Source of the DNA: an uncultured Flavobacteriaceae bacterium
GTDB lineage: Bacteria > Bacteroidota > Bacteroidia > Flavobacteriales > Flavobacteriaceae
Length of the DNA stretch: 64,000 bases
Direction of reading: 5' to 3'
Assembly: GCA_947497145.1 (NCBI GenBank)
Contig: CANMFQ010000007.1
Span: forward strand, 62,001 to 126,000
The notes under the pieces were generated by a model that saw only the letters and a list, made by a program, of their open reading frames with translations, was not told the origin of the DNA and did no database searches. Positions 1 to 15,774 of the stretch are shown one piece after another (position 1 is the first letter of the stretch; every line of letters begins with the position of its first letter). A program made the translations under genes and the position numbers.

Positions 1-13
1 ATTACCGTTTTCT

Positions 14-25
14 GTAGATGAATGG
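14..25. promoter_or_regulatory. single copy of the candidate LytTR-binding motif
   Basis: GTAGATGAATGG matches the motif that occurs as 21-bp-spaced pairs at 7501/7522, 9096/9117 and 15616/15637. The ten bases before it also resemble those before the 7501 copy (18 of 22 positions agree over 4-25 against 7491-7512). No convincing partner lies 21 bp downstream; an upstream partner would begin seven bases before the window. It lies about 85 bp upstream of the first gene, but its orientation matches sites in front of minus-strand genes, so it may serve a divergent gene to the left. Confidence 0.4.
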
Positions 26-109
26 TCATATAGTGATGTTTATTTGATATGTATAAGTTTTTTAAATAAGTCAAAATAATATTGTTATATTTTCCTACAT
101 TTATTGTTG

Positions 110-3100
110 ATGAAGAACACAAACACATTGTTAGTTTTAGCCCTATTTGTGGGGGTAGCGTTTCATGGATCTAGCATCTTTTTTACTTTAGAAACTACTT
201 ACGATGCCTTAATTCATCTATTTTTTGCCGATCATTATGCAAAAAGTTGGTTTGAACCATGGGATTATCGCTGGTATACGGGTTTTACCGTACAGGGATA
301 TCCTCCTTTGGTACATCAAAGTATAGGCATTTTATCATATATAGGAGGTTTAAAGTTTGGCCTATTTACCGTAGGGCTTTTTGCAATAATTCTATTCATT
401 ACAGGCACATATAGATTTGCATTATTGATGACAGCAAATAGAAAAATTGCTGGCTATACAGCTATATTGGCTGTTTTTTCTTCAACTTTTATTGAAACGC
501 TTCATGTATTTGGGCAATTGCCGAGTATTGTAGGGCTTTCAATACTGCTGCATTCTATGCCTGAAATATACCTATGGATTAAAACCGGTAACTACAGATA
601 TTTGGTAACTTCCTTGTCCTTAATAGCAGTTACCGTAACATCGCACCATGTCACACCAATTTTTGGGATGGTATTTTTTATTTTTCCTTTGATAGGTATG
701 GTTATTATGGATACCTCTATTGATAAAGTTCATGTCAATAGCGCGCTTACTTTTAAAGTGTTTTTGGCGTCCTTTAAAAAACTGTTTTGGCGTATTGTAA
801 GTTTTGGGTTTTCTTCTTTGTTTCTTATTGTGGTATGTATTTTACCCTATTGGATTAATACGAAGAAAAACCCCATTACGCAGGTACCTATTCCACATGG
901 TTCTCGCGATAACTTTTTAGAAGTAACCTCTTCGGGGCTTGTTTTTTTCGTCATTCCTTGGGGTTTACTTACGTTTTTAATGCCCTATATATTTTATCGT
1001 TTCTTTAGCAAGCGTTATCTGTTTTTTGGATTATCAATGGTTATTTTAACCATTTTAGGTACCGGTGGTACCACGCCCATACCCTTAATTGTATTGGGTA
1101 AAACTGCATTTAATATTTTAACGCTTGACCGTTTTACACTTTGGGCAACTATTATGGCATTGCCCATTTTTGGTGAATTCACGTATCGAATGGTGGCGGG
1201 CGATTTAAAGCAACAACTACAAAAACGTTTTGGCGGTATTTATCATCGACTTTTGGGTGGAGCCATAGCGGGAGGGGTATTGTTTATGGTTATGTTTACA
1301 ATGAGTTTGGGGTATTTTAGACCCTCGCAACCGCAAAAAATTAATATGTTGCCTATTGTTAATTTTTTAAGCCAAGACCAGCATGACCAATGGCGTTATC
1401 TACCGCTAGGTTTTGGAGATCAAATGGCATGGCTGTCGGCACAAACCAATGCAATGACTGTAGATGGTAATTATCACTCGGCAAGACGACTACCTGAGCT
1501 AACCACAAGAGCAATAGAACGTCTCGAAAATTCAAAATTTAGAGGTGTTGAAGGTATTGGATCATTACAACAGTTTTTAACGGTGCCCGAGAAGTATAAT
1601 TTGAAATATATTTTTAGTAATGATAAATTTTATGATCCTATTCTTTATTTCTGCGGATGGCAACGACTGCAACAACTAGAAAATGGAATAATGGTTTGGG
1701 AGCGGCTAAATGTTCCTCCAATGCCTAAAATACTGCCTAAAGAAGATGTTGCCCAATGGCTAAAAATCATGTGGGGTATTATACCCATATTAACCGTGCT
1801 CATTGCATTTTTTATTAATATTCAATTATTGTGGTATCGGGTATTGAAATACAAGAAGTTACATATGCCTGATTATATGAAGTATCCCCTTGATTTTCAT
1901 GATTTTCCTAGGCTAATGGTAAACATTAACCACATTTGGGCATTTTTAGTGCTTGCTTGCTTGGGCTTTGGCATTTATGAATTTTACCTATTTAACGCAA
2001 GTCAGCGTTCACCAGAAAATGTAATTAAAGCGTATTATGACGCATTGGATGTAAAAGAATTTCAAAAAGCACATTCCTTTTTGAATGACGAAAGAGAAGT
2101 GACTATTTCGCAGTTTATGCTAGAGGTATCGGTGACTGATGGTATTTTAAGTTCGTATGCAAAGCTCGACGCCATTGACATAAAGCTCAAAGATGTCACT
2201 GAAATTAGTGCCAAAGCCGAGGTTAGTGCAAATTGGATAACGCCTCTAGAAAAAGTGTATAAAACATACCAACATGATTTGGTAAAACGAAAAGGAAAAT
2301 GGTATATAGAGCCCTATTACTTAGACACGTATCTTCCTCCTGATCAATTGTTTAGTGATAACAATACCACTTTTTACAATCATGGGCGCCGTAGAATTAC
2401 TACCCAACAATCGAGTCATGAAGATGTGCTAAAACAACCAATTTTAGAAGTGCTTTCGGCAAAGTTGGTGAAGTTTAATGGAAGTTATTCGGTTATTGGT
2501 GAAATACAAAATGTAGATAATTTGCCCGCCGATGTTGTTATAAAGGCAACCCTGTATAACGATTCAAATAAAGAATTAGCAAATTACAACGCTAAATACC
2601 ATATGAAGCATAAATTAATGCCTATGGAAACCACATCGTACAAGATCAATTTTGAAGGTATAGCTTGGTCGCTTGCCAAAGATACTATTCCGCCAACGTT
2701 TAACCCCGATGAGTTTACACCCATTGCCCTAACAGAGCAGCCAACAAAATTTAATTTGCAAAGTGCAGGTAATGTTGCTAATACCGATTTATACAAAAGG
2801 GTATCCTTACAAGATGTACGGATATCACCTAAGACAATTACTGGAGAATTATTTAATTCAGGTATACAAGAAGTTACTATTCCGTTACTGTTGGTTAGTT
2901 ATTATGATGCCGATAAAAATTTGGTTTGGGTAGACCATAAATTTGTGAAAGATGGGGTGCGAGTACAGCGCAAACAACCATTTGAATATGAACTAATGGC
3001 TGTATCAGGAGTTCGGGTTATCAATAGTAGTCTTGATAACTGTTATGTCAATGGTTTACCCAATTCTAGTATAGCAAACCATGCTGTTCCCAATAGAAGA

Positions 3101-3190
3101 GATGGCCATGAGCAACTACAATCACTTTCGGGCGACGGGTTTGAATTTGTAAAAATTGAAATGAACAGTTACATAGGTAATCCCCGATAA
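110..3190 (+). CDS. large multi-pass membrane protein, PTPS-related/GT-C glycosyltransferase-like, with NTF2-like and FxLYD-like tail
   Basis: About 1026 residues. The first ~410 residues hold roughly ten hydrophobic segments and an early acidic loop (Thr-Tyr-Asp-Ala-Leu-Ile-His) followed by a Tyr-Pro-Pro-Leu motif, as in 6-pyruvoyl-tetrahydropterin-synthase-related GT-C-like membrane proteins. Two more TM segments lie near 555-580 and 615-635. The C-terminal third is soluble: an NTF2-like region (~635-745) and a beta-rich FxLYD-like region (~775-870). ATG at 110 is preferred over an in-frame TTG six bases upstream. It leads a three-gene operon (1 bp to the lipoprotein gene, which overlaps the GH5 gene). 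I infer lipid-linked sugar transfer or polymerisation in surface polysaccharide synthesis; the exact reaction is unknown. Confidence 0.6.
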   Translation: MKNTNTLLVLALFVGVAFHGSSIFFTLETTYDALIHLFFADHYAKSWFEPWDYRWYTGFTVQGYPPLVHQSIGILSYIGGLKFGLFTVGLFAIILFITGTYRFALLMTANRKIAGYTAILAVFSSTFIETLHVFGQLPSIVGLSILLHSMPEIYLWIKTGNYRYLVTSLSLIAVTVTSHHVTPIFGMVFFIFPLIGMVIMDTSIDKVHVNSALTFKVFLASFKKLFWRIVSFGFSSLFLIVVCILPYWINTKKNPITQVPIPHGSRDNFLEVTSSGLVFFVIPWGLLTFLMPYIFYRFFSKRYLFFGLSMVILTILGTGGTTPIPLIVLGKTAFNILTLDRFTLWATIMALPIFGEFTYRMVAGDLKQQLQKRFGGIYHRLLGGAIAGGVLFMVMFTMSLGYFRPSQPQKINMLPIVNFLSQDQHDQWRYLPLGFGDQMAWLSAQTNAMTVDGNYHSARRLPELTTRAIERLENSKFRGVEGIGSLQQFLTVPEKYNLKYIFSNDKFYDPILYFCGWQRLQQLENGIMVWERLNVPPMPKILPKEDVAQWLKIMWGIIPILTVLIAFFINIQLLWYRVLKYKKLHMPDYMKYPLDFHDFPRLMVNINHIWAFLVLACLGFGIYEFYLFNASQRSPENVIKAYYDALDVKEFQKAHSFLNDEREVTISQFMLEVSVTDGILSSYAKLDAIDIKLKDVTEISAKAEVSANWITPLEKVYKTYQHDLVKRKGKWYIEPYYLDTYLPPDQLFSDNNTTFYNHGRRRITTQQSSHEDVLKQPILEVLSAKLVKFNGSYSVIGEIQNVDNLPADVVIKATLYNDSNKELANYNAKYHMKHKLMPMETTSYKINFEGIAWSLAKDTIPPTFNPDEFTPIALTEQPTKFNLQSAGNVANTDLYKRVSLQDVRISPKTITGELFNSGIQEVTIPLLLVSYYDADKNLVWVDHKFVKDGVRVQRKQPFEYELMAVSGVRVINSSLDNCYVNGLPNSSIANHAVPNRRDGHEQLQSLSGDGFEFVKIEMNSYIGNPR

Positions 3191-3191
3191 T

Positions 3192-4421
3192 ATGAAGCTT
3201 TGTTGTTACATAGTTGTTTTTATGCTTTTCTTCGGATGTAAGGAAGAAGTAGTGGATACAAAAACAATTTCCAAGGCTATATTGATTTCTATTCCTGATG
3301 ATGGGGTAGTGGGGAATGCTATTGAATTTGAATTTTATGTAAAAGGAGATGGAATGCCTATTTTAAAATTGGAGAACAGTTTTGGCTCCATGTTTTTTCA
3401 ACCAAAAATAAAAAAGAGTACAGCGGTTTTTAATATACACAAAAAATACACCGAGCAATCGGGCATATATACATGGAAACTTTTTTCAAACAAAAAAATA
3501 CTACTTCAAAACAGCTTTTTCTTGGCGCCCAAAGATGAAGATACCCGAGAAATTGAAGTTTATTTTGGACCACGAAGTATTAAGGCTGGTGGTTATGATT
3601 TTTCAATGCTAACAATTTTACCTGCTGATGTATATGACAACCCGCTATCTGACGGTACGCCAATTGATATTTTTCAACAAATGAGCAATGAAAAACAAGA
3701 ATTTCAAAACCAACTGACAGATGGGTACACTTGGATTCGGTTATATAGTGATGATAATGCAGGGCGTATGCTGGTTAGCGGTATTGTAAATGAAATATAC
3801 TCTAAAGAACTCACCAGTATGATCTGGGCTTCAAATAGTGTCGATTTTACTATTGATTATTCTCGGGTACATAAGTTTGCCGATGCTAATCAGGTAATTA
3901 CATATACAACTTCTATCATTAAAGATAAATATGACAATGTTGTTGGTGATGGTACTTTTGTTCGTTTTATTGTTGAAAATCAAGCAGGAGGACGACTACA
4001 AGCTATAGGTACTACTATAGGGGGCATAGCTACGGGCAAATTATTACATCCTGCAGCACCAGACACATGGAAAGCGACAGCCTTTATATACGGAGAATCT
4101 CAAAGTAATACTATAGAAGTAAGTTTTGAAAGCGCCATAAAAGATTACAATCTGTCATTTTCACCTGATAATAGAACCATTACAGTAGGACCAATACTTA
4201 GTTTTATGGAGCAATTGGTACCCGATGGAATTGTAATAGATTTAGAAATTTATAAAGACAAAACCTTAATGGGTACGCAACAAACTAATTCTCGGTTGGG
4301 CAAGGGAGTATTTAACCTTGAAAAAGGGTTTTATCCACCTGGGGATTATGATATAAAGGTTATCGTAACAGGTATAACAAAAGAATTTAACCTCAAATTA
4401 ATGCCTTATGAAGTGGAATAG
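3192..4421 (+). CDS. putative lipoprotein with Ig-like/invasin-type repeats
   Basis: 409 residues. The N-terminus is a short lipoprotein signal with Cys at residue 16 (MLFFGC, then Lys-Glu-Glu), so it is probably tethered to an envelope membrane. The rest is beta-rich without catalytic motifs. Segments around residues 230-315, with VVGDGT followed by VRF and then GGIATGKL, resemble invasin/intimin bacterial Ig-like domains. It starts 1 bp after the upstream stop and overlaps the next start by 14 bp, so translation is probably coupled with the membrane GT-like and GH5-like genes. I infer an accessory scaffold of the polysaccharide machinery; no specific family is recognised. Confidence 0.5.
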   Translation: MKLCCYIVVFMLFFGCKEEVVDTKTISKAILISIPDDGVVGNAIEFEFYVKGDGMPILKLENSFGSMFFQPKIKKSTAVFNIHKKYTEQSGIYTWKLFSNKKILLQNSFFLAPKDEDTREIEVYFGPRSIKAGGYDFSMLTILPADVYDNPLSDGTPIDIFQQMSNEKQEFQNQLTDGYTWIRLYSDDNAGRMLVSGIVNEIYSKELTSMIWASNSVDFTIDYSRVHKFADANQVITYTTSIIKDKYDNVVGDGTFVRFIVENQAGGRLQAIGTTIGGIATGKLLHPAAPDTWKATAFIYGESQSNTIEVSFESAIKDYNLSFSPDNRTITVGPILSFMEQLVPDGIVIDLEIYKDKTLMGTQQTNSRLGKGVFNLEKGFYPPGDYDIKVIVTGITKEFNLKLMPYEVE

Positions 4422-5949
4422 ACACCTGCTGCGCATATTCCTTATCAGCACGTTTTTTGCTGTTAATGCGTTAATACTTTTTGGTATAAGTTCGGTATGG
4501 TCTTATTTAAATACTGGGGCAGATAGATCGAGTAGGTTGCATATAGGATTTACCCAAGAAGATTCTAATTTACCAACAATTGATTGGGATATTTCAAGTG
4601 TTGAAGGGCGTGTTATAGAAAACCAAACAGTAGCAGAAATAGAACGCGACTACCTTAAAGGATGGTTTGTTAAAAACACCGCCTTAGCTACCAATAATCG
4701 TTATGGTATTGATGATTATTTTACCGATAGTGCAAGAGTAAAACTGTTCAAAATTCTAAAACTGAATAAAGAGAACAACTATAAGATAGAGCAAACTACT
4801 TATGAGCATCACCCAAAAATAGATTTTTATAGTACTGACGGAACGCAGGTTGCTTTTACAGATACTGATGTTATTAGCTATCAAAAAGGGTATTTGAATG
4901 ACCAATCTATAGTTGAGCAAAAAGAGGTAGCCTCTTACAAAGTATTCATGCTTTTAGAAGATGGTTTTTGGCGTGTACGACACTTTGTAAAAAAAACGGC
5001 CACACCTTTTAAAGCACCTAAGCCGACTACATTGAAACCAAAAATGAAAGCGCGTTTACAGCAAATAAAAGGCCTCAATTATTACCCCAAAGATACACCG
5101 TGGGATACATTTGGAAAGCAGTTTGAAGACAGTATTATTAGTGCAGATTTTAAATTGATTAAAGCAATGTCGCTCAATACCATTCGTATTTTTATTGGGT
5201 ATGAAAAATTTGGAAAAACTAAAGTCTCAGAAGAAAAATTGATAAAACTTCGTACGCTTTTAGATCATGCGCAAAATAATGATTTACAAGTGGTTATCAC
5301 CTTGTTTGATTTTTATGGTAATTATCTAATTTCGGATTGGAACTTGAATCATAGGCATGCAGAAAGAATTGTGAAAACATTTAAAGATCATCCGGCGTTA
5401 TTAGCATGGGATTTAAAAAATGAACCTGATTTAGATTTTGAATCTCGTGGTAAAGAAAATGTTTTAGATTGGTTAAAAGAAATGACCTTACAAATAAAAC
5501 AATGGGACAGTATACACCCTATTACCGTCGGATGGTCTAGCGCAGAAGCTGCTGCCCATTTAACCAAAGAACTCGATTTTGTTTCGTTTCATTATTACAA
5601 GAAGCTTAAAGATTTTAAACAAGAATTGAACACCTTAAAAAAGGCCGTACCCGATGATAAACCTATTGTGCTTCAAGAGTACGGTGTTTCATCATATAGT
5701 GGTATGTGGAACACTTTTACAGGTTCGCAAGAAAAACAAGCTGCCTATTACGAAACAATGCAATCTTTTTTAGCAGAAGAAGATGTTCCTTTTTTATTTT
5801 GGACATTATATGATTTTGAAAGTATTCCAAAATCTGTAGTTGGTATATTACCATGGCGTAAGCTGCCACAAAAATATTATGGTTGTGTAGATAGTAATGG
5901 AGATAAGAAAAAGGCTTTCGAAATTTTAGCAGGAACTTCAAAGCAATAA
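4408..5949 (+). CDS. GH5-like (clan GH-A) glycoside hydrolase with N-terminal membrane anchor and NTF2-like domain
   Basis: 513 residues. One hydrophobic segment (~8-33) anchors it or acts as an uncleaved signal. Residues ~70-197 look NTF2-like (ending DGFWRVRHF), echoing the NTF2-like tail of the first operon gene. Residues ~218-510 form a TIM-barrel hydrolase of clan GH-A: Asn338-Glu339-Pro340 supplies the acid/base Glu and Glu424 in VLQEYG the nucleophile, with HYY at 395-397 and a late WTLYDF. By analogy with glycosidases in polysaccharide secretion operons (BcsZ, PgaB, AlgL) it may trim the nascent polymer, but the substrate cannot be read from sequence. A periplasmic nutrient glycanase is the alternative. 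Confidence 0.7.
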   Translation: MKWNRHLLRIFLISTFFAVNALILFGISSVWSYLNTGADRSSRLHIGFTQEDSNLPTIDWDISSVEGRVIENQTVAEIERDYLKGWFVKNTALATNNRYGIDDYFTDSARVKLFKILKLNKENNYKIEQTTYEHHPKIDFYSTDGTQVAFTDTDVISYQKGYLNDQSIVEQKEVASYKVFMLLEDGFWRVRHFVKKTATPFKAPKPTTLKPKMKARLQQIKGLNYYPKDTPWDTFGKQFEDSIISADFKLIKAMSLNTIRIFIGYEKFGKTKVSEEKLIKLRTLLDHAQNNDLQVVITLFDFYGNYLISDWNLNHRHAERIVKTFKDHPALLAWDLKNEPDLDFESRGKENVLDWLKEMTLQIKQWDSIHPITVGWSSAEAAAHLTKELDFVSFHYYKKLKDFKQELNTLKKAVPDDKPIVLQEYGVSSYSGMWNTFTGSQEKQAAYYETMQSFLAEEDVPFLFWTLYDFESIPKSVVGILPWRKLPQKYYGCVDSNGDKKKAFEILAGTSKQ

Positions 5950-6167: not shown

Positions 6168-7400
6168 CTATCCTTCAACTAAGCTTATCGTTTTTGAAAG
6201 CTCAAGGGTCGCATTTTTATCAATTTTTGATCGTTTTATGGCTTTGAAATATTTTATATACATACCGGTAATCGTTGACATTGGTAGCGAACAAGCTGCT
6301 TTGTAATTTGCTTTGCCTAGTTCAATTCTATAAAGGTCATAGTTTAGTACGTTGCCTATGGCTTCACTCAACGATTCTACACTATTTGGGTCAAAAAATT
6401 CACCTCTGTAACCTTCTTCTTTCACAAGAATACTCAAGTCACCCAAATCAGGTAAAACAACTGCTTTCCCGTAACTACCAGCTTGATGTAATACCCCAGA
6501 ACTACCTGTTGTTGACGTATACGGAAATACAGCTACCGCACTTTCTTGAAAAATAGCAGGTACATCTTCCTCAGCAACATAGCCTGTAAACCGTATTTGG
6601 GGGATATGCTTATAGGCTTCCTTTACGCCAGCCAAATACCCAGGGGTATTTGGGCTATCAGTACCTGCAATTACAATTTCTATATCATGCGTTGTTTTTT
6701 CTCTAAGTAGCGCAACAGCTTCAATTAAAATTTCTACTTTTTTATAGGTGCCAAATTTACCAAAAGCCATTACTTGCTTAGGGCCTTCTGGTAAACTGTA
6801 ATCAGGTTCTGGCGGAATTTCAAAAGAGCCATGAGGCACTAAAGCCACGTTAGTAGCCTTGTATTTTTTTTCTAAAATTTGTACATATTTACTTATGGTT
6901 ACGGCAAGCACATCAGAAGCAAGAACGCAACGTGTCAACGTACTTCCAATAAAATTGTAAACTTTTTGTAGGAGGATATTTTTAGTAATTCCAGCATTTT
7001 TTAAATCTACTTGCTCCAAAATATTGTGTAGCAGTGAAATGGTAGGTACTCCTTTAAACTTGCAAAGCAATGGTAATAGCAAACCTAAAGCAGCAGGAAT
7101 TTTTTTATCACCAAATTTTAAAAACTGAAGGTTAAATAATACCGCATCTGGTTTTGTTTGCGATATGGTTTTGTTGATGTTAAAAAAGTTACTGTAACTA
7201 TTGAATTCCCAAGATTCTTTGACGGTTATTTTACAACCCGCTTCTTCAAAATCTAAATCTTTGGCTTCAGTTGTTTTGTCGGTGATTAAAATGATTTCAG
7301 TAACTTCTTCGTGCAGTCTAAAATGTTTTACCAAATGATACCCATACTCGGTTAAAGTTACCTTACTTGGTGGGTAGGCAGTTACAATAGCTAATTTCAT
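6168..7400 (-). CDS. GT4-family glycosyltransferase (GT-B fold)
   Basis: 410 residues. The N-terminal Rossmann half starts VTAYPP-S-KVTLTEYGYHL, typical of glycosyltransferases that open with a Gly/Ser-rich acceptor loop. The C-terminal half (~205-390) has the GT4 nucleotide-sugar domain: VMAFGKFGTYKKVEILIEA, then FTGYV, and VFPYTSTTGSSGVLHQAGSYG in place of the usual EX7E region. It probably adds a sugar to a lipid-linked or polysaccharide acceptor at the cytoplasmic face. It follows the flippase gene on the same strand after a 270-bp gap that contains a paired LytTR-like site (7501-7533), so it likely has its own regulated promoter. Confidence 0.75.
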   Translation of the reverse strand: MKLAIVTAYPPSKVTLTEYGYHLVKHFRLHEEVTEIILITDKTTEAKDLDFEEAGCKITVKESWEFNSYSNFFNINKTISQTKPDAVLFNLQFLKFGDKKIPAALGLLLPLLCKFKGVPTISLLHNILEQVDLKNAGITKNILLQKVYNFIGSTLTRCVLASDVLAVTISKYVQILEKKYKATNVALVPHGSFEIPPEPDYSLPEGPKQVMAFGKFGTYKKVEILIEAVALLREKTTHDIEIVIAGTDSPNTPGYLAGVKEAYKHIPQIRFTGYVAEEDVPAIFQESAVAVFPYTSTTGSSGVLHQAGSYGKAVVLPDLGDLSILVKEEGYRGEFFDPNSVESLSEAIGNVLNYDLYRIELGKANYKAACSLPMSTITGMYIKYFKAIKRSKIDKNATLELSKTISLVEG

Positions 7401-7500
7401 AATAGTAGGTTAAGGTTAAGATTTATGCTTAAAATCTAAAAACAAAGAACGAACTTAAGCCTGTAATAAAAGTCGGTTTGCTTGTCGCTGACCATTTTGT

Positions 7501-7533
7501 GTCGACGAATGGGCTGATTTCCTTGATGAATTG
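7501..7533. promoter_or_regulatory. candidate LytTR direct-repeat site upstream of the GT4 gene
   Basis: GTCGACGAATGG (7501-7512) and CTTGATGAATTG (7522-7533) are direct repeats with exactly 21-bp spacing, the geometry of LytTR-domain sites (about 9-bp repeats separated by 12-13 bp). The pair is 100-133 bp upstream of the minus-strand GT4 start at 7400. The same motif and spacing recur at 9096/9117 and 15616/15637. Confidence 0.5.
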
Positions 7534-7670
7534 CTTTTTGCAGCTTATTTTGTTTAGTGGTTTCAATTTGCGGTATTGACAGCTAATTTTCTTTTACGAG
7601 CTGATAAAGGAGCAATATATGTTATCATTTTTTTTTACTTACATATGTATATGGTATTTGATGCCCCCGT

Positions 7671-8906
7671 TTATTTTAGCATTTGCTTGAAAAAATAAAT
7701 TAATTGTGCTATTAATAAAGATACCATACCAATTATTTGTATTTGCACAACCATGGCAAGGCTTGAATGAAAACAAATGATTAGTATAATTTGTGCAACA
7801 CCTAAAATACCAGAGAATAGCACTGGCTTGTATTGATCTAGTGATAAAAAATAATAGGCAAAAATGTTTGATATAGCAAAAAGTGAAGTAGCTAGTGCAT
7901 ATTGCCAAAGTAAGCTCGACATGGCCAAATAGGCTTCACCAAACAAAAGTGTGATTATGAGGTCAGGAAATAGATAGCAAGCAACTACAATACTTGATGA
8001 CAAAAGGCTAATATAACTTACATACTTAGAAAGTACAGGTGCCGTTGCTTCACCATCTTTGTGTTTTTGAACTACAGTAGGTAATAGCAACATTACATAC
8101 ATCCAAGCAATGAAATAAACCACTCTACCAATAAGCGCTAAAGAGGCATATAAACCAGCATCTAAGGGGTTAAAGTAATGTTTTACTAAAAGAATGTCGC
8201 TGTTATTAATTAATATTTGTGTTAGTTCATAGGCCCCTGTTAGCCCTATAAATCGTACTATTTTTGTGGTTTGTTGTTTTGAAAGTTTGTTTTTTGAGAA
8301 TAACGTAATTCCTTTTAAATTAGAGGGTATTAAACCAAATACAAATGATATTCCAATACCTAGAGCAACTAAAAAGGAAGAATCGAGCGGTAGTAATAAA
8401 AGCAAAAGTATGGTAATCAGAAATCGACTCCACATTTCAGTTTGATAGGTCACTGCTAGTTGCTTAAAATTTTGAAACCCTTGAAATTTTCCACGATTTA
8501 TACTCATTACAAAATATAGAGGAATACCAATACCGAAGGTTATAAACATCCATGAGTTATGTGTTTTGAAAACAGCCTGTAATTGTGAAGAAAAAACGAT
8601 CACTAAAAGCCCCAAAAGAATACCTAAACCAAGGGCGTATGAATATAGGGTATTTTGAAAATGACCATAATCATCTTTTGAAAACAATACGGCAAACTTT
8701 GCTGTCACCAGCTGAAATGTCATTCCTACAAAAGATAAAACTAGTAAAAGGGTAATTAATAAAGCGGCATCAGCAAAGGCTTCTGGTCCAAGCATTCGCC
8801 CTAAAACCAAATTATACAAGTAATTTCCTCCATTCACTAGTAAAGAACTAATCATAAACAGCTTTTCTGGCGAAACCTTGCTAAAGCCTAATCTAAATAA
8901 TCTCAT
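7671..8906 (-). CDS. oligosaccharide flippase / polysaccharide biosynthesis membrane protein (MOP superfamily)
   Basis: 411 residues with about twelve hydrophobic segments. The N-terminal stretch NYLYNLVLGRMLGPEAFAD is the hallmark opening of Wzx/MATE-type polysaccharide exporters, and the length fits the family. It should move a lipid-linked oligosaccharide across the inner membrane. It starts divergently from the TPR-barrel gene with a 333-bp spacer, and the GT4 gene lies downstream on the same strand. With those neighbours and the GT-C-like and GH5-like genes it makes a plausible export route for a surface polysaccharide. The substrate is unknown. Confidence 0.8.
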   Translation of the reverse strand: MRLFRLGFSKVSPEKLFMISSLLVNGGNYLYNLVLGRMLGPEAFADAALLITLLLVLSFVGMTFQLVTAKFAVLFSKDDYGHFQNTLYSYALGLGILLGLLVIVFSSQLQAVFKTHNSWMFITFGIGIPLYFVMSINRGKFQGFQNFKQLAVTYQTEMWSRFLITILLLLLLPLDSSFLVALGIGISFVFGLIPSNLKGITLFSKNKLSKQQTTKIVRFIGLTGAYELTQILINNSDILLVKHYFNPLDAGLYASLALIGRVVYFIAWMYVMLLLPTVVQKHKDGEATAPVLSKYVSYISLLSSSIVVACYLFPDLIITLLFGEAYLAMSSLLWQYALATSLFAISNIFAYYFLSLDQYKPVLFSGILGVAQIILIICFHSSLAMVVQIQIIGMVSLLIAQLIYFFKQMLK

Positions 8907-9239
8907 AAAAATATTTTCTTTGTATGCGCTACAATTTGAACCTATGTTTGTTTACAGATTCTAATAATTTTGAAAATGGAAGCGAAATTGCTGATTTAAT
9001 GATATTTGCTAGAATTGAGACATATTAAAAAGCGTTGATTACTACTTCATTTATAAAACAAATATCTATACGATTGCCATCTTAAAATCGCTGCTGTAGA
9101 CCAATGACATATTTATGTCGACGAACTGCAAGTAAGTAACTTCTTACAAATTGATCTTCAGCGTAACTTTACCCTTGTAAAATCAATAGTATTTATGGCA
9201 TTCAAATTAACCAGTCAAAATACTACACAAACTTAACCT
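8907..9239. other. 333-bp divergent intergenic region
   Basis: Separates the flippase (minus) and the TPR-barrel gene (plus). It holds the paired LytTR-like repeats at 9096-9128. No RNA gene or terminator is evident. Confidence 0.5.
9096..9128. promoter_or_regulatory. candidate LytTR direct-repeat site between flippase and TPR-barrel genes
   Basis: GTAGACCAATGA (9096-9107) and GTCGACGAACTG (9117-9128) are direct repeats at exactly 21-bp spacing. The orientation relative to the minus-strand flippase is the same as at the 7501 and 15616 pairs relative to their minus-strand genes. The pair lies 190-222 bp from the flippase start and 112-144 bp from the TPR-barrel start, so either could be the target. 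Confidence 0.5.
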
Positions 9240-11303
9240 ATGCGTATTTTAGTAATAACCGCTATTTTGTTTGTTTCTACTTTTATAGTACACGGACAAA
9301 ATGCAATGCAAGAGGGGTTTACCTTTTTGGAGAATGGAGATTTTAGTAAAGCAGAAGTTTTTTTTAAAGCTTATTTAGAAAAGGAGCCTGCAAATAAGAC
9401 AGCAAATATCTGCTACGCCAGAGCCGTTGGTTTAAACGGAGCTCCAGAAAAGGCAAATACCTTATTTGGCAACTTATTAAAGGAGTATCCTAAAGATTTT
9501 GAAGTTGCTATCAATTACAATGAATCTTTTTTGTGGGCAAAGCAATACAAAAAGGCAAAACCTTTGTACGAAGATTTGATTGCTGAATATCCTGATAAGT
9601 TTGCTGCGGTATTGGGTTATGCAAATACCCTGAGTAATTTAAAAGAGTATCCAGAAGCATTAGTATGGATAAATAAGGCTTTAGCCCTTTCTCCTGATAA
9701 TCAAAGTGCAAAAATTTCAAAAAAATATATACGACTAGGGTATGCTAATGCTTATGTTAATGCGCAAGAGTATGAAAAAGGTGTGAAATTATTGCATGCT
9801 ATTTTTACCGATTTTCCTGGTGATAAGGATGCACTTTTAAATTTGGCTAATATCCATTTAATAACAAAAGATGTTACAAAAGCCAAAAATACGTATAAGA
9901 GTTATGCTACTTCTCCGCAAGATTCTATTACCGCATTGAATGGTATTGCTCTTGCCGAACATATAGATGAAAATGAGAAAGATGCATTAGAGATCGCTAC
10001 AATGGCGAGAAGAAGAGTTGCAAAATTTGATAATGTTGAATTAAAAAAACGTACCTATGAGCGCTATGTGCAAGCACTTATTTGGAATAGAAAATTTAGA
10101 ACAGCAAGAAAGCAGATAGACAGCCTTGAAACCACAAAAATTAATGGAAATTGGGTATTGGCTTTACGAGCTACTTTAGGTATGTATACAGGTAGTTTTA
10201 AAATCAGCCTAGCTAGTTATGATGCTATTCTTGCCAATGATAGTAAGTCTTTTGATGGTAATTTAGGGAAAGCTAATGCGCTTTTCGCTTCAGATAGAAT
10301 TATACCTGCTTATGCAGCAACTTATAAGACTTTAGAGGTGTTTAAAAATCAAAAAGATGCTGTGGGGCTTATAGAAAAGATGAATATTGTGCATACCCCA
10401 ACTATTGAAGAACATTTCGCATATACTTTTGATAATGGTAATAATGTGGCTGTTTCAAATACCTTGAATGCTTTTTTTCCTTTTTCCTCAAAATTTAAAA
10501 CAACACTTTCATATCAATTTAGAACTACTGAAAACACCATTAGCGGAAGTAAAGCTGATTCCCATGTTTTATTAGGAGGTATCGACTATAAGTTGATGCC
10601 ATTGGTAAATTTGAATACAGTTTTTGGTATCAATAATAGTCATTTTATTACTGATGCGTACACCTTACCTATATTTGATACCAAATTACTGATTAAGGCT
10701 TTTAAATTGCAGTTTTTGTCACTTGGTTATCAGCGCGAAGTACAAAATTTTAATGCAGATTTAATTGGTCGTAAAATTGTTATGAATCATTATAGCCTAA
10801 ATTATAATTTGGGAACGAATGTTAATTTAGGATGGTATACCCAAATTATGCGAACAGAACAAAGTGATGATAATAGTCGTAATTTACTGTTTACTTCGTT
10901 ATACTATACCGTACTGCAAAAGCCTGCCTTAAAATTTGGACTTAACTACCAGTACATATCATTTAGCGAACAATTACCTACCATATATTTTAGCCCAGAA
11001 ACGTATCAGGCAGGAGAGCTATTTGCAGACATACGTGGTAAGATATCAGAAAATACGACTTATATGGGGAGTTTTGCTACAGGACTTCAAAAGGTTGAAG
11101 AAGACCCTAAAACACCCATTTTTAGGGCTGAAGCAGCGATAAAACACCAATTTGGAAAACGACTTAGTGGAAATATTTACGGTAAATACAGTAATATAGC
11201 TTCTGCTACAGCTGCTGGTTTTCAATTTACCGAAATAGGTGCGAAAATAAAGTGGTTATTTACAAAAAAACCATGGATTCTTGACCTTAAAACAAAACAG
11301 TAA
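9240..11303 (+). CDS. TPR protein with C-terminal YaiO-like outer-membrane beta-barrel
   Basis: 687 residues. A Sec signal peptide (~1-19, ending VHGQ) is followed by tandem TPR-like helices over ~25-375, for example ENGDFSKAEVFF and EYPEALVWINKALALSP. Residues ~395-680 are alternating aromatic/polar beta-strands typical of a barrel of the YaiO type. TPR-plus-barrel proteins such as PgaA, BcsC and AlgK/AlgE carry polysaccharides across the outer membrane, which fits the adjacent flippase, glycosyltransferases and GH5-like protein. The barrel is short (~16 strands at most). The gene is divergent from the flippase and shares its regulatory spacer. Confidence 0.7.
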   Translation: MRILVITAILFVSTFIVHGQNAMQEGFTFLENGDFSKAEVFFKAYLEKEPANKTANICYARAVGLNGAPEKANTLFGNLLKEYPKDFEVAINYNESFLWAKQYKKAKPLYEDLIAEYPDKFAAVLGYANTLSNLKEYPEALVWINKALALSPDNQSAKISKKYIRLGYANAYVNAQEYEKGVKLLHAIFTDFPGDKDALLNLANIHLITKDVTKAKNTYKSYATSPQDSITALNGIALAEHIDENEKDALEIATMARRRVAKFDNVELKKRTYERYVQALIWNRKFRTARKQIDSLETTKINGNWVLALRATLGMYTGSFKISLASYDAILANDSKSFDGNLGKANALFASDRIIPAYAATYKTLEVFKNQKDAVGLIEKMNIVHTPTIEEHFAYTFDNGNNVAVSNTLNAFFPFSSKFKTTLSYQFRTTENTISGSKADSHVLLGGIDYKLMPLVNLNTVFGINNSHFITDAYTLPIFDTKLLIKAFKLQFLSLGYQREVQNFNADLIGRKIVMNHYSLNYNLGTNVNLGWYTQIMRTEQSDDNSRNLLFTSLYYTVLQKPALKFGLNYQYISFSEQLPTIYFSPETYQAGELFADIRGKISENTTYMGSFATGLQKVEEDPKTPIFRAEAAIKHQFGKRLSGNIYGKYSNIASATAAGFQFTEIGAKIKWLFTKKPWILDLKTKQ

Positions 11304-11364
11304 AATTACAGTATGTATTAAACTAGGGAAGGGGGCAATAAGAATTATGTGCTTGCCATCACTG

Positions 11365-11402
11365 TTTATCCTCCTACCATTGTAAAACGGCAGGAGGATA
11401 AA
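11365..11402. repeat. 11-bp-stem inverted repeat between converging genes
   Basis: TTTATCCTCCT (11365-11375) and AGGAGGATAAA (11392-11402) are perfect complements around a 16-nt loop. On the plus strand the stem is followed by TAAAAAAC rather than a T-run, so it is not a standard intrinsic terminator; it may stabilise the 3' end of the TPR-barrel transcript. Confidence 0.5.
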
Positions 11403-11536
11403 TAAAAAACGAAGTGCAGTAGCGGTTTTTAAATTAGTTATAAGGATCGCAACAGTTTAATTACACTAAGAAAGTGTTATGCAAAAGGCTATTTTTATAT
11501 ACTTCACTGATAATTTAACTAAATTGAAATATGATA

Positions 11537-12244
11537 TTATAACAGATTCAATCTTCGCATTAATTCTGGTCGGTTTGAACGACTTATAGGAATTACTTTC
11601 TTTTCAATTAATACACTGTTATCTTCAATATCAATAATTTTTGTAAAGTTGATGATATAAGAGCGATGTATTTGTAAAAATGTTTTAGCTGGTAGCTTTT
11701 CCTTTATTTTTTTTAGACTTGTATGTACATGGTACACCTCTTTTTCGGTTTTTATGTCTATATAATCACCTTTGGCTTCAATAACGAGTATTTCGTTAAG
11801 TTTTAGCTTAATTAATCGTCTGTCAATGTTTACATATAAATCACCTAAATCTGAATTTTCCCTTTTAACAGTATCGTTTGTTTGGGTTCGAGCTGTTATA
11901 TTTTTCAGTTTATGAATCGATTTTTGAAACCTTTCAATCGTAATGGGTTTTACCAAATAATCTACAATTGATTCATACTCATAAGCTTCAATAGCAAATT
12001 TGGTATTTGATGTGGTTAATATAATTTTAGGCGGATTTTTGAGTGTTTTAATAAAATCAATACCAGAAAAATTTGGCATGTGAATATCTAAAAAAACAAC
12101 ATCAATTTCATGTTGATTTAAAAATTTGAGCGCTTCAATGGCATTGTCAAATTTTTCAATAACATCTAAATCGGGTACTTGTAAACAGAGTTGACTGACT
12201 ATAGCTCTTGAAGTCGCTTCATCATCAATTATTATGCAGTTCAT
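11537..12244 (-). CDS. LytTR-family response regulator (output of the H-NOX phosphorelay)
   Basis: 235 residues. The N-terminal receiver has acidic residues at 7-8, phospho-acceptor Asp53 in VFLDIHMP and the conserved Lys in LVKPI. The C-terminal ~105 residues are a LytTR DNA-binding domain (IVIEAKGDYIDIKT, FLQIHRSYIINF, IPISRSNRPEL). LytTR regulators bind 9-bp direct repeats about 21 bp apart. It is the last gene of the H-NOX operon, 3 bp after the Hpt gene, so it is the likely terminal transcription factor of the relay. Repeats with the expected spacing lie upstream of this operon and of two polysaccharide genes. Confidence 0.9.
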   Translation of the reverse strand: MNCIIIDDEATSRAIVSQLCLQVPDLDVIEKFDNAIEALKFLNQHEIDVVFLDIHMPNFSGIDFIKTLKNPPKIILTTSNTKFAIEAYEYESIVDYLVKPITIERFQKSIHKLKNITARTQTNDTVKRENSDLGDLYVNIDRRLIKLKLNEILVIEAKGDYIDIKTEKEVYHVHTSLKKIKEKLPAKTFLQIHRSYIINFTKIIDIEDNSVLIEKKVIPISRSNRPELMRRLNLL

Positions 12245-12247
12245 GGC

Positions 12248-12568
12248 TTAAATAGTAGTTAAGTAGTTTGATATTATATCTAGTATAGTTCTGAACTCCT
12301 TGTCTAATTTCATACTATCTTCACGTAGTTGATCTTCATAAGCCAACGCAATTTCGTATGATTTTTCCATGCTAAGAATATTCAGTTTATGCTTTAGCTT
12401 ATGAACGATTTCTGCAGCTACTAATAATTGTTTATTTTCAATAGCGCTGTTGTAATCGATTACTTCATCAGGAAACTCAGTTTTGATGATTTCAATGAAT
12501 TGGTTTTCAAATGCAATGTCATCACCAGCTAGTTTTTTTATATATTCTAAATTAGGTTCTTCTGTCAT
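12248..12568 (-). CDS. free-standing Hpt (histidine phosphotransfer) protein
   Basis: 106 residues, the usual size of a single Hpt four-helix bundle. The site is His56 in EIVHKLKHKLNIL, which matches the HxLK(G/H) Hpt signature. It should pass phosphoryl groups between receiver domains, here from the CheY-like protein (start 15553) to the LytTR regulator, because the kinase in this operon has no receiver of its own. The start overlaps the kinase stop by 4 bp (ATGA) and the LytTR gene follows after 3 bp, so stoichiometric co-expression is likely. Confidence 0.85.
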   Translation of the reverse strand: MTEEPNLEYIKKLAGDDIAFENQFIEIIKTEFPDEVIDYNSAIENKQLLVAAEIVHKLKHKLNILSMEKSYEIALAYEDQLREDSMKLDKEFRTILDIISNYLTTI

Positions 12569-14556
12569 ATGTTTTTCTTTATTGTGAAATAAAAGGTTGT
12601 ACCCTTATCTTTTTCAGATTCTAACCATATATTGCCCCCGTACAAAGTGACAATTTTTTTTACTATTGATAATCCAATACCTGTAGAACGTTCTTCGTCT
12701 CCTATCGATTGGAATATTTCAAATATTTTTGCGTGATATTCTTTTGGAATACCTATACCATTATCAGAAACATTAAACTGCCAGTGTGTTTTGGTTTCTA
12801 CGCTCCCTACTGATACTATCCCTTCTTTTCGAGTAATATGCATCACGGCATTGGCAATTAAATTTTGAAATACTTGGTGTATTTTAGTCTTGTCGATATA
12901 AAGTGTTGGTAGTTTTTTTTCAGTTACCACCTTTACATGCTCAGGAATAAAAATGATTTCACTTATCTCGGTAATTACGCTGTTTAAATCGACAGGTTCG
13001 TTTAGTAACCGATCATTGCTAATACTAGAATATTTAAGAATACCATCAATTAATTTGTCCATGCTCTCTATTTTTTCTTGTATCATTTGAAGGTTATTGA
13101 CGCCATTTTCATCTAACACGTCTTTGTAATCTTCATTTAACCATGTAGATAAAGCACTTATGCTACGTAAGGGCGACTTTAAATCATGAGAAACAATATG
13201 AGCGTATTCTTGCAAGCCTTGATTGCTTGCTTCTAAATCTTTAAGTAATTTTTCTTTTTGTAGTTCGAGGTGTTTTTGTTCTGTAATATCTAGGTGAATG
13301 CCTATCGAACCCACTATTTCTCCGTCACTATTATACCGTGGTGCACCACTAATGAGCCAATACCTAGTCTCACCAGCTTTGTTAAGTATTTCAATTTCGT
13401 AAGAATCTGATTTGCCTTTTAATCGCTCTGTGTCTTTTAGGGTTATTAGGGCTACTTCTTGTACTTTTAAAATTTCTTTAGCTTTACGCCCAATTAGTTC
13501 TTTTTCTGAATACCCACTCATTTGACAAAAGCTCTTATTGGCAAATTGAATTTGATCTTTTAAATCAACTTCAATAAGACCTAAGTTCATATTAGCAATA
13601 ATATTGCTATATTTTTCGCGCTCTGCTTTTATTTGTTTTTCAGCCTTTTTCTTTTCGGTAATATCTTCTATAACAGCAACTTGAAATTCAACATCTCCCT
13701 TATCGTTTTTTACAGAGCTAACTGTAGTTTTCGCCAGTAGTTTTGTTCCATTTTTTCTAACGTATTGTTTTTCAACTGAAAAAGTGTCAATTATGCCAGC
13801 ATTTACTTTCTCCATCAACTGTAAAGAAGCTTCTGAAGTATCTTTAATAGACACATCTTTAACATGAAGTTGCTTAAGTTCGTTTTGTGAGTAGCCTAAA
13901 AGCTTAGCAAAACTGGGGTTTACTCTAATAAATTTTCCATTAATAGTTAAAACAATACCTAAAGGCGAATTTCGTACTATTACATCGAGTTGTTTGTTCT
14001 GTTTTTTTAGTTGTTCTTCTATTTCCGTTTCATGACCGATATCTCTGATAATACCTTGTACGCCAATAGGTTTTTTGTCTGAATCATAAACCAAGCTACA
14101 ATTTATTTGTACATGTTTTTTTACATTGTGTTTGAGTACTAGCTTAACACGATAGTTTTTTAGAATACCTAATTCTAGTAAAAAGCGGAACGATTTTATA
14201 CTATACTCCCGGTAATCTTCATGAACGAGTTTGGCAAAATTTATAGTTTCTTTGTTATGATCTAAACCCAAAAAATCCTTAGCAGAATCATTCATATTCT
14301 GAACTATAAAATCAAGACTAATCACCACATATGGGTCAATAATGTTTATGAAATCACCATCAAATGCAGCGTTTTTTTTAAGTAATAGGTTTTCTAATTT
14401 ACTGTTAGCTTGTTTTAAATGATGGGTAGCATCATTAAACTCTTGAGATTTTTTTTCAAGTAGTTTTTCTGCTTGGATACGCGCTTTTTTTTGGCGTTCC
14501 AATGTCTTTTTTAACAGTGCTATTTCAGTACTGCTATCCATTTTGTACGACATCAA
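12565..14556 (-). CDS. H-NOX-associated histidine kinase with three PAS domains
   Basis: 663 residues, no TM segment, so cytoplasmic. Residues ~11-60 form a coiled coil (ERQKKARIQAEKLLEKKSQE) of the type found on enzymes coupled to H-NOX proteins. Three PAS/PAC units follow (~65-176, 188-302, 312-426). The HisKA domain has phospho-acceptor His457 in VSHDLKSPLR. The ATPase has the N box (Asn565/Asn569), DNGIG (598-602) and GIGLSIV. It has no receiver or Hpt domain; separate proteins in the operon provide them. It overlaps the end of the H-NOX gene by 23 bp, which supports a direct sensor-kinase pair. Confidence 0.9.
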   Translation of the reverse strand: MMSYKMDSSTEIALLKKTLERQKKARIQAEKLLEKKSQEFNDATHHLKQANSKLENLLLKKNAAFDGDFINIIDPYVVISLDFIVQNMNDSAKDFLGLDHNKETINFAKLVHEDYREYSIKSFRFLLELGILKNYRVKLVLKHNVKKHVQINCSLVYDSDKKPIGVQGIIRDIGHETEIEEQLKKQNKQLDVIVRNSPLGIVLTINGKFIRVNPSFAKLLGYSQNELKQLHVKDVSIKDTSEASLQLMEKVNAGIIDTFSVEKQYVRKNGTKLLAKTTVSSVKNDKGDVEFQVAVIEDITEKKKAEKQIKAEREKYSNIIANMNLGLIEVDLKDQIQFANKSFCQMSGYSEKELIGRKAKEILKVQEVALITLKDTERLKGKSDSYEIEILNKAGETRYWLISGAPRYNSDGEIVGSIGIHLDITEQKHLELQKEKLLKDLEASNQGLQEYAHIVSHDLKSPLRSISALSTWLNEDYKDVLDENGVNNLQMIQEKIESMDKLIDGILKYSSISNDRLLNEPVDLNSVITEISEIIFIPEHVKVVTEKKLPTLYIDKTKIHQVFQNLIANAVMHITRKEGIVSVGSVETKTHWQFNVSDNGIGIPKEYHAKIFEIFQSIGDEERSTGIGLSIVKKIVTLYGGNIWLESEKDKGTTFYFTIKKNI

Positions 14557-15076
14557 ATTTCACCATCGTACCATCAGATTTTAATAGCTCGTATGAAACT
14601 GTAGCCGAACTGTTGTAGTGTTCGAAACATTTTTCAATTAAACCATGAGCCAACCTATATAATCCCCGAGATGAAGAATATATCATAGAGATTGAGGTAT
14701 CTGTTTTTTCTAGTATCTTAAAGGTGGGTAATTCGGCGTCAGGATATAATTTTTTAACATGAATATGTATGTGATCTTCTATAGAGTAAATAAGCGCAAG
14801 AGGATTGGTGTAATTTTGAATGACATCAGGGTGCGCTTTTCCTAAACTTGTAAACAAGTATTGACCAAAAGTATATATTAAAGTATCTACATCAATTTTT
14901 ACTTTAGCACTTAAGTTGGTTAAAAGGCTTACCATTTCATTAAAATCGTAAGTTCCTATAGACGTGTAAATACCTTCTGAGCTTAGTTGAGAATCTTCAA
15001 TAATTGCGTCAACAGTTTCTAAACCAAACTTTGATTCAACCATTTCCAAAAATTCAGTGAATACAATTCCTTTCAT
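14534..15076 (-). CDS. H-NOX heme nitric-oxide sensor protein
   Basis: 180 residues, full length for a stand-alone H-NOX domain, starting MKGIVF as the family does; an in-frame start at 15118 would add 14 atypical residues. The proximal heme ligand is most likely His104 in EDHIHIHVKKLYP, aligned with the His of the DxxHxH motif of soluble guanylate cyclase. The heme-propionate motif YxSxR is Tyr133-Ser135-Arg137. By spacing from this motif, the position of the O2-stabilising distal Tyr of Thermoanaerobacter H-NOX is Leu142, suggesting an NO-selective sensor. In this family NO binding usually inhibits the partner kinase. The gene is co-transcribed with that kinase. Confidence 0.9.
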   Translation of the reverse strand: MKGIVFTEFLEMVESKFGLETVDAIIEDSQLSSEGIYTSIGTYDFNEMVSLLTNLSAKVKIDVDTLIYTFGQYLFTSLGKAHPDVIQNYTNPLALIYSIEDHIHIHVKKLYPDAELPTFKILEKTDTSISMIYSSSRGLYRLAHGLIEKCFEHYNSSATVSYELLKSDGTMVKFDVVQNG

Positions 15077-15151
15077 ACATTTAAAAATTTTAATAAATGT
15101 AAGAAAATGACTACTCAAAAAAAAGAAAATGTTGTGAATCTTTGAATTCTG

Positions 15152-15553
15152 TTAGCCTTTAATTAGCTCATTTACATGCCAGTAATCAAAAACTTTCTTT
15201 ATTTTATCTTCGTAGTCTTCATATTTTAAAGGCTTTATCACGTATCCTGCTATGCCAATTTTATAACATTCTAATAAATCATTTCTATTTTGAGATGTTG
15301 TGAGAATGATTGCTGGCAAATAGCGATATTCGTCATGATCTTTAAGAATTCGCAGAAATTCAATGCCACTCATTCTAGGCATGTTAAGGTCAAGTAGTAT
15401 GATATCTGGAAGTTTAGCGTTACTTTTCAAGACCTCTAAAGCTTGCTCACCGTTTTTGGCTTCTGTTATTTGATGCTTTTGACTAAATTTTGAAACCGTT
15501 CTGTGAAGTTTCATTGTTTCTATTTTGTCGTCCTCTATAAATAATATGTCCAT
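15152..15553 (-). CDS. single-domain CheY-like response regulator
   Basis: 133 residues, receiver domain only: acidic pair Glu7-Asp8/Asp9, phospho-acceptor Asp55 in ILLDLNMPRMSG, Thr in ILTTS and Lys in VIKPL. The ATG at 15553 gives the canonical receiver start (MDILFIEDDK); a TTG start at 15592 would add 13 residues of no family likeness. First gene of the H-NOX operon, 75 bp ahead of the H-NOX gene. It is the natural intermediate receiver between the kinase and the Hpt protein. Confidence 0.85.
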   Translation of the reverse strand: MDILFIEDDKIETMKLHRTVSKFSQKHQITEAKNGEQALEVLKSNAKLPDIILLDLNMPRMSGIEFLRILKDHDEYRYLPAIILTTSQNRNDLLECYKIGIAGYVIKPLKYEDYEDKIKKVFDYWHVNELIKG

Positions 15554-15615
15554 GATTGTATCTAAATTATTAACACTACAAAGAACCAACAAAAGGAATC
15601 ATTTAATTTGCTTCC

Positions 15616-15648
15616 GTAGATGAATTCGACTTAAGTGAAGACGAATGG
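15616..15648. promoter_or_regulatory. candidate LytTR direct-repeat site upstream of the H-NOX operon
   Basis: GTAGATGAATTC (15616-15627) and GAAGACGAATGG (15637-15648) are direct repeats at 21-bp spacing, 63-95 bp upstream of the first start codon of the operon. If bound by the LytTR regulator encoded at 11537-12244, the circuit is autoregulated. Confidence 0.5.
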
Positions 15649-15774
15649 TAAATTACGAAAGATTAGTAGTAATTTGTAGTTGGCTGGTTTTTTTATGAAA
15701 ACACCTTGAATACCGTACACTAGGGTAACCTCAGTCTTTAATTAAATTATTCATAGGGCAATTCATCTGAAACT

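Follow-up and report, generated by a model that had tools for sequence, protein, structure and literature searches.

Portions of the published accounts describe LytTR operators as direct repeats 10–13 bp apart, lying mostly upstream of the −35 box, where the proteins act as activators (PMC11347149, PMC6193735), and record triple LytTR sites for RcoM and CoxC (PMC11347149). For gas sensing, excerpts of the Vibrio fischeri work have HnoX inhibiting HahK, a kinase that acts through SypF and SypG to promote polysaccharide genes (PMC12369376), and a review of H-NOX and NosP, itself represented in part, identifies the nitric oxide (NO) sensor NosP as a FIST protein, with the term LytTR absent from its main text (PMC8738867). 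A literature search covering titles and the beginnings of abstracts, with most subscription papers outside its scope, found no published circuit leading from H-NOX to LytTR control of polysaccharide. A locus joining these components is described here from a 64,000-nucleotide stretch of an uncultured Flavobacteriaceae bacterium (GenBank assembly GCA_947497145.1, contig CANMFQ010000007.1, positions 62,001–126,000 of the forward strand; hereafter the window), for which operator structure, promoter geometry, restriction within the genome, conservation and tracking of the regulator were computed. The 21-bp-spaced direct repeats of this locus, situated before polysaccharide genes and before an H-NOX operon, are most probably, to judge from the DNA and its relatives, the operators of the LytTR response regulator encoded at 11537–12244.

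The repeats are genuine and lie far outside chance expectation. Pairs of the 12-mer GTMGAYGAAYKG occur at 7501/7522, 9096/9117 and 15616/15637 with a spacing of exactly 21 bp, all on the same strand, in the gaps that separate the main open frames, just as the initial annotation had reported; the single copy that it noted at position 14 is present, and belongs to a fourth operator reaching beyond the window start instead of forming a lone site. Its 12-mer stands as a consensus, matched exactly only at 7501 among the six paired copies, the other five carrying one or two mismatches. The paired architecture is likewise genuine and had to be extended, stacks of homologous sites (which contain the window's own) resolving the full operator into three direct repeats 21 bp apart, with a strong central R2 (GTAGACGAATGG; CCATTCGTCTAC in gene sense) and weaker R1 and R3 at −21 and +21; 7501/7522 are R2 and R3, and the other two pairs are R1 and R2. 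The operators, their −7-like boxes (assigned by eye, offsets counted from R2) and the proposed regulator are as follows.

Positions 1–44, minus strand: in-window part of operator D (R2 14–25; profile E = 6.6e-8), with −7-like box TATATTTA before the window start, at offset 49
L005:11958–12044 (G000:C7:61958–62044), minus strand: whole operator D module, whose predicted promoter exits the window towards the receiver-GT2 gene
Positions 7440–7533, minus strand: operator A and predicted GT4 promoter (R2 7501–7512, R3 7522–7533, degenerate R1 7480–7491; profile E = 3.3e-4)
Positions 7450–7443, minus strand: −7-like box of operator A, GTTCTTTG, offset 50, two mismatches to TAnnTTTG
Positions 9056–9145, minus strand: operator B and predicted flippase promoter (R1 9096–9107, R2 9117–9128; profile E = 3.2e-7)
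Positions 9066–9059, minus strand: −7-like box of operator B, GATATTTG, offset 50
Positions 15576–15670, minus strand: operator C and predicted promoter of the receiver–H-NOX–kinase–Hpt–LytTR operon (R1 15616–15627, R2 15637–15648; profile E = 2.5e-8)
Positions 15586–15579, minus strand: −7-like box of operator C, GTTCTTTG, offset 50, two mismatches to TAnnTTTG
Positions 11537–12244, minus strand: LytTR response regulator (REC and LytTR; Pfam PF00072, PF04397), the proposed operator-binding protein, with PF04397 at E = 1.2e-19 (70.8 bits against a cut-off of 22.6)

Lone copies of the 12-mer with up to two mismatches number 33 in the window against 20.3 expected, the highest of 100 shuffles reaching 31; such counts are weak evidence, and pairs, later a profile, were used instead. 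An exact copy at 43942–43953 on the minus strand lies within a gene and is probably due to chance. Across the 5.1-Mb genome of the window (labelled G000, with the cluster on C7), the pair rule GTMGAYGAAYKG-N9-GTMGAYGAAYKG with up to three mismatches gives four matches, three of them the window's pairs, and its backward pattern gives none, an outcome of the proposed genome-wide search that favours the motif. The profile is a sequence-only model trained on 70 of 115 operators from other genomes, a set limited by class and to operators having a −7-like element with at most two mismatches at offsets 49–51. Applied to the window's genome, with 150 of 2678 first-look candidates scored, it recovers four operators, all within the cluster (C7:77577–77665, E = 2.5e-8; C7:61958–62044, 6.6e-8; C7:71056–71146, 3.2e-7; C7:69440–69531, 3.3e-4), the next-best match standing at E = 0.53.

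The operators lie at a fixed distance from a promoter element. TAnnTTTG, which we take to be the Bacteroidota −7 consensus, peaks (at most one mismatch, counting from R2) at offset 50 and reads the same way as lytTR in all five classes of stacked sites, one site, the best, being retained for each class at each locus: 42 before the single-domain receiver gene, 27 before the GT4 gene, 22 between flippase and TPR genes, 10 between the receiver-GT2 and 104-type genes, and 18 past the lytTR stop. The box stands at exactly this offset in 69 of the 119 sites, against 1.84 expected (mean per offset, summed), the classes and not the sites counting as independent cases, since sites within a class are homologous; by class the counts are 14/42, 19/27, 17/22, 8/10 and 11/18, in the same order. 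Sites before the receiver gene show a second peak at offsets 70–71, one repeat further (7 and 4 sites). The −7 box played no part in choosing the stacked sites, and it is this count that gives independent proof of the box, which the profile cannot do because its training was filtered on a −7-like element. With the box at offset 50, R1 ends about 30 bp ahead of it, so that the repeats, of period 21 only, sit just upstream of the expected position of the promoter's upstream box and within the period of about 21–22 bp of LytTR direct repeats. By analogy, this placement fits activation, being the usual geometry of LytTR activators.

Both the cluster and its operators recur in relatives, as the initial annotation had proposed to check. 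The family sample comprised 249 genomes, and an H-NOX match at E ≤ 0.001 was found in 94; loci were drawn as 20 regions fetched by H-NOX, 80 named loci retrieved with the LytTR protein as query (relatives including Maribacter, Arenibacter, Zobellia, Cellulophaga and Winogradskyella), and congener regions fetched by pair hits. In 18 of the 20 regions around the best H-NOX matches in other genomes, the H-NOX-operon genes occur together with several polysaccharide-cluster genes, the exceptions being L064, whose region ends just short of the TPR gene, and L069, which is short; the arrangement of genes differs in L057, which lacks GT4, and in L066 and L068, where the flippase lies elsewhere within the cluster. 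The TPR gene is also present in 15 of 20 further regions picked for a motif match or LytTR. Within 27 loci with recognised cluster genes, a set that includes congener loci fetched for pair hits, half-sites pair at −21 (25) and +21 (18) against 0.2 expected per offset, and the backward motif shows no offset peak. The pair rule at up to three mismatches gives 88 matches at 21 bp in 64 of the 80 LytTR-fetched loci, part of which come from genomes also covered by the foregoing samples; the remaining spacings from 14 to 35 give 0–3 apiece, 200 shuffled motifs give a mean of 0.21 and a maximum of 23, and the backward motif gives no pair match. All 88 lie on the strand opposite lytTR and none on the other. 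Direction is equally strict for the profile, with 177/177 matches in lytTR's direction in 59 of 61 of the 80 named loci (short loci and loci seen to have been used before were set aside) and 50/50 in 13 further loci.

The repeats also track one particular regulator. Among 16 genomes, 13 have a LytTR match of at least 69% identity, with the other matches listed at 40% or below; across the family, orthologues (E ≤ 1e-60) go down to 52% identity and occur in 97 of the 249 genomes, and at class level they are mostly confined to the family (5 of 295 genomes, four of the five within it). A refined family pattern has 121 matches in 71 of the 249 genomes, its backward control having one, and pattern and orthologue coincide strongly (67 genomes have both, 4 the pattern alone, 30 LytTR alone and 148 neither; Fisher p = 8.8e-32). 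Of these matches, 105 lie within 25 kb of lytTR or the H-NOX gene, and the 103 situated no more than 25 kb from lytTR all occupy the strand opposite that gene. The profile, with 70 candidates scored per genome, finds a match in 19 of 20 LytTR-bearing relatives and in 3 of 39 others, two of them marginal (59 relatives, p = 2e-11); 11 of the 20 supplied training sequences, and eight of the nine that did not (G000, G015, G018, G021, G022, G023, G032, G262 and G283) have a match. Within the genus, the pair rule matches in seven of eight LytTR-bearing genomes, the remaining one, G001, having five profile matches and being itself a training source, and the profile matches in 8/8 with LytTR against 1/6 without. 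In G024, G239 and G184, lytTR sits elsewhere in the genome, outside the H-NOX cluster, and nine profile matches (three of them training sequences) surround it there, in agreement with the pair scan; the H-NOX clusters of these genomes have no profile match at E ≤ 1, and an earlier pair scan likewise found none there. The original reading of the repeats as a LytTR regulon is thus borne out in its specificity across the genome, its conservation and its association with the 11537–12244 protein, as opposed to the genome's 26 further LytTR-like matches. The window encodes a second LytTR-like regulator at 30142–30816, 36% identical, near which neither the pair search nor the profile search shows an operator. 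In G192 (C49:157786–158556), the LytTR orthologue near H-NOX is split, with two matches in different frames.

All scored operators read in the direction of lytTR, and the predicted targets are on that account the receiver–H-NOX–kinase–Hpt–LytTR operon, the flippase, the GT4 gene and the receiver-GT2 gene. The polysaccharide genes and H-NOX operon first proposed as the regulon are retained, with the receiver-GT2 gene, just before the window, as a fourth target. The remaining genes of the cluster are the following.

Positions 104–3190, plus strand: conserved 1028-residue protein of the polysaccharide cluster, without a Pfam family, divergent from operator D and 65–80% identical to its counterparts in 19 aligned relatives
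Positions 3192–4421, plus strand: 409-residue lipoprotein-like protein of the polysaccharide cluster, conserved in the cluster, with no Pfam family above cut-off
Positions 4408–5949, plus strand: glycoside-hydrolase-2-like TIM-barrel protein (Pfam PF02836)
Positions 6168–7400, minus strand: GT4-type glycosyltransferase (Pfam PF13692/PF00534), predicted target of operator A
Positions 7671–8906, minus strand: polysaccharide flippase (Polysacc_synt; Pfam PF13440), predicted target of operator B
Positions 9240–11303, plus strand: export-porin-like TPR protein (Pfam TPR), divergent from operator B and a possible second target
Positions 12248–12568, minus strand: Hpt-like phosphotransfer protein of 106 residues with the sequence HKLKHK (Pfam Hpt, E = 0.014, below cut-off)
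Positions 12565–14556, minus strand: PAS-rich histidine kinase without a receiver domain (Pfam PAS, HisKA, HATPase_c), overlapping the H-NOX gene
Positions 14534–15118, minus strand: H-NOX haem sensor, likely start 15076 (Pfam HNOB, E = 2.2e-38; sequence YSSSR)
Positions 15152–15553, minus strand: single-domain receiver, first gene of the operon (Pfam PF00072; frame 15152–15592), its start likely the ATG at 15553, since the longer frame to 15592 is overlain by the predicted promoter
L005:10739–11899, minus strand: receiver-GT2 glycosyltransferase fusion gene just before the window, predicted target of operator D

A receiver-GT2-like gene is present in 11 of the 20 regions fetched by H-NOX, several of which end before that place. 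For operator B, which the initial annotation had placed between flippase and TPR genes, the predicted promoter faces the flippase gene, and the TPR gene is only possibly affected. An assignment of operator B as the TPR promoter, suggested by its less variable distance to that gene, was dropped, as the offset-50 box faces the flippase in 17 of 22 sites; a TAnnTTTG-like box also occurs 35 bp past R2 on the TPR side in 11 of the 22, and the TPR gene is a possible second target. Assignment of the cluster to poly-N-acetylglucosamine or cellulose export was rejected, the NCBIfam models for PgaA and BcsC scoring the TPR protein at 44.7 and 13.2 bits against cut-offs of 366.65 and 858. In relatives, 16 of 41 site rows outside the four main classes (L081 and L093 being one stretch) are followed in the promoter direction by a frame of 813–868 residues, in two sequence groups, which the other 25 rows lack and which the window also lacks at that place; the one such frame that was scanned (L132:7761–10349) carries a type IX secretion tail.

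For the input, the H-NOX protein carries YSSSR, an instance of what we take to be the H-NOX haem motif, YxSxR, and is encoded in one operon with a partner histidine kinase, as expected for NO signalling; its nearest solved chains are 6bde and 6bdd (E = 4.3e-61). A match to it occurs in 87 of the 97 LytTR-bearing genomes, and a FIST protein is encoded in 24 of 41 H-NOX loci examined, with none found in the window cluster; in L132 (L132:4434–6631), a FIST gene lies between the gene of the first kinase and that of Hpt, with a second histidine kinase after it. At L088 (G024), where lytTR stands outside the H-NOX cluster, its neighbours include genes for a nitrite reductase, a Rieske protein and a PilJ-type kinase, and frames of similar size occur in L089 and L090. 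The alternative that survives best, itself rather unlikely, grants that the operators belong to LytTR and holds that kinase and Hpt carry some other signal, H-NOX being an accessory freely lost and gained; it draws on the 10 of 97 LytTR-bearing genomes without an H-NOX match, five of which keep the pattern, on L143, which has receiver, kinase, Hpt and LytTR genes without H-NOX, and on the three genomes with lytTR away from the H-NOX cluster, and has to be set against the frequency of H-NOX in LytTR-bearing genomes, the FIST genes of the NosP family and the second kinase that follows in the one annotated case, and the nitrite-reductase operon of L088. Since H-NOX can be absent with the pattern retained, NO need not be the signal, and NO input is likely, not obligatory. 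The link first drawn from NO sensing to polysaccharide control is, in its NO part, an inference, since there are LytTR-bearing genomes that lack H-NOX or carry lytTR outside the H-NOX cluster.

A second alternative, that a different regulator travelling with the cluster binds the repeats, has in its favour that LytTR binding is a prediction and that five genomes have the motif without an orthologue: the refined pattern occurs so in G062, G118, G119 and G170, and a strong operator in G004, their best LytTR matches reaching 36–42% and some of the assemblies being fragmented (in G062, a FIST match stops after residue 130, and the fetched stretch yielded neither Hpt nor LytTR). It is nevertheless very improbable, given that in the three genomes with lytTR elsewhere the operators accompany that gene and were not found in the H-NOX cluster, that a 21-bp period and a position upstream of a promoter suit LytTR proteins, and that a Pfam scan of the window's operon found no other DNA-binding domain. 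Scarcely credible is the further proposal that the repeats are non-regulatory, as chance, mobile-element traces or a DNA-processing signal, which strand-locked repeats could suggest and which the moderate excess of lone 12-mers in the window would allow, against a promoter-locked position across five gene classes, only four matches in the genome and conservation across many genera.

For the reading of the repeats as LytTR operators within an NO-responsive circuit, there is, beyond the genomes without H-NOX or without a LytTR orthologue, a set of further observations on the debit side. The refined pattern misses the weak operators of the window itself (no match in G000), for which reason it is limited to family statistics, and 30 of the 97 LytTR-bearing genomes lack it at that threshold. 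The pair rule is noisy within the genus, matching in three of six LytTR-less genomes (G002, G004 and G007) and once in the backward control, and seven of the eight LytTR-bearing congeners matched by the profile were training sources. Genome searches may miss sites because a limited number of first-look candidates was scored (at most 11 in the orthologue search), sites of one class are homologous and not independent, and the Hpt assignment at 12248–12568 falls below the Pfam cut-off.

On the proposed mechanism, NO-bound H-NOX would alter the activity of its partner kinase, and phosphate would pass from the kinase to the single-domain receiver, to Hpt and to LytTR, perhaps also to the receiver of the GT2 fusion; this order is the simplest because the kinase has no receiver domain of its own. 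Phospho-LytTR would bind the triple repeats, ordered R3-R2-R1 and spaced by two helical turns, immediately ahead of a Bacteroidota promoter with its −7 box 50 bp from R2, and would, we infer, activate and not repress four promoters, those of its own sensor operon (autoregulation), the flippase, the GT4 gene and the receiver-GT2 fusion, leading to assembly of a polysaccharide presumably destined for the surface or a biofilm. Through the fused receiver, the phosphorelay might in addition act directly on the GT2 enzyme. Taken together, and with somewhat less than even confidence, the locus may represent a self-contained, direction-locked NO-to-polysaccharide module of Flavobacteriaceae, in which one or two haem sensors (H-NOX, with FIST/NosP in relatives) and a single Hpt would feed a LytTR protein activating only the same-facing genes of its own cluster, including the sensor operon, via triple 21-bp operators at a fixed −7 distance, the relay perhaps acting directly on GT2, and regulator and operators being able to occupy a different locus together, in the one annotated case beside nitrite reductase. 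A marine bacterium may in this way adjust its surface polysaccharide via a gas-sensing pathway. For a Bacteroidota LytTR regulator, this amounts to the prediction of a DNA code, a promoter geometry and a list of targets; gas sensor and polysaccharide genes are joined in one conserved cluster of marine bacteria, and NO control of polysaccharide production in marine Flavobacteriaceae becomes testable.

Among the regulators suited to comparison, RcoM has a haem domain and SypG is an NtrC-type activator. With RcoM and CoxC, as far as the excerpted account goes, the locus shares a LytTR domain and repeats about two helical turns apart, three at a promoter; activators of the RcoM type occupy sites upstream of the −35 box (PMC11347149), a placement also predicted for the operators here. 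The half-site differs, however, being TTCNNGCA there and CCATTCGTC here, and CoxC is a repressor that senses carbon monoxide through its own membrane domain (PMC11347149), whereas the LytTR protein here is a response regulator encoded in a kinase–Hpt operon. AlgR of Pseudomonas aeruginosa, a response regulator of the LytTR family whose targets include the alginate gene algD, has the half-site CCGTTCGTC, identical to CCATTCGTC at eight of nine positions by eye; its algD sites, in the portion of the account at hand, which makes no mention of an H-NOX operon, are single, at −470, −394 and −45 (PMC4064291).

On the sensory side, the H-NOX/HnoK and NosP systems, as the available part of the review presents them, resemble the locus in pairing H-NOX with a neighbouring kinase and in the FIST genes of H-NOX neighbourhoods, and differ in their outputs, which are cyclic di-GMP enzymes, quorum sensing and iron uptake (PMC8738867). 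The syp system of Vibrio fischeri agrees in outline, from H-NOX and its partner kinase through a phosphorelay with an Hpt step to direct transcriptional control of a polysaccharide cluster (PMC12369376). SypG is not a LytTR protein, and the regulator of the window is of REC-LytTR build. Unlike in syp, the genes for regulator, sensor and polysaccharide are here combined in a single cluster, and the sensor operon carries an operator too.

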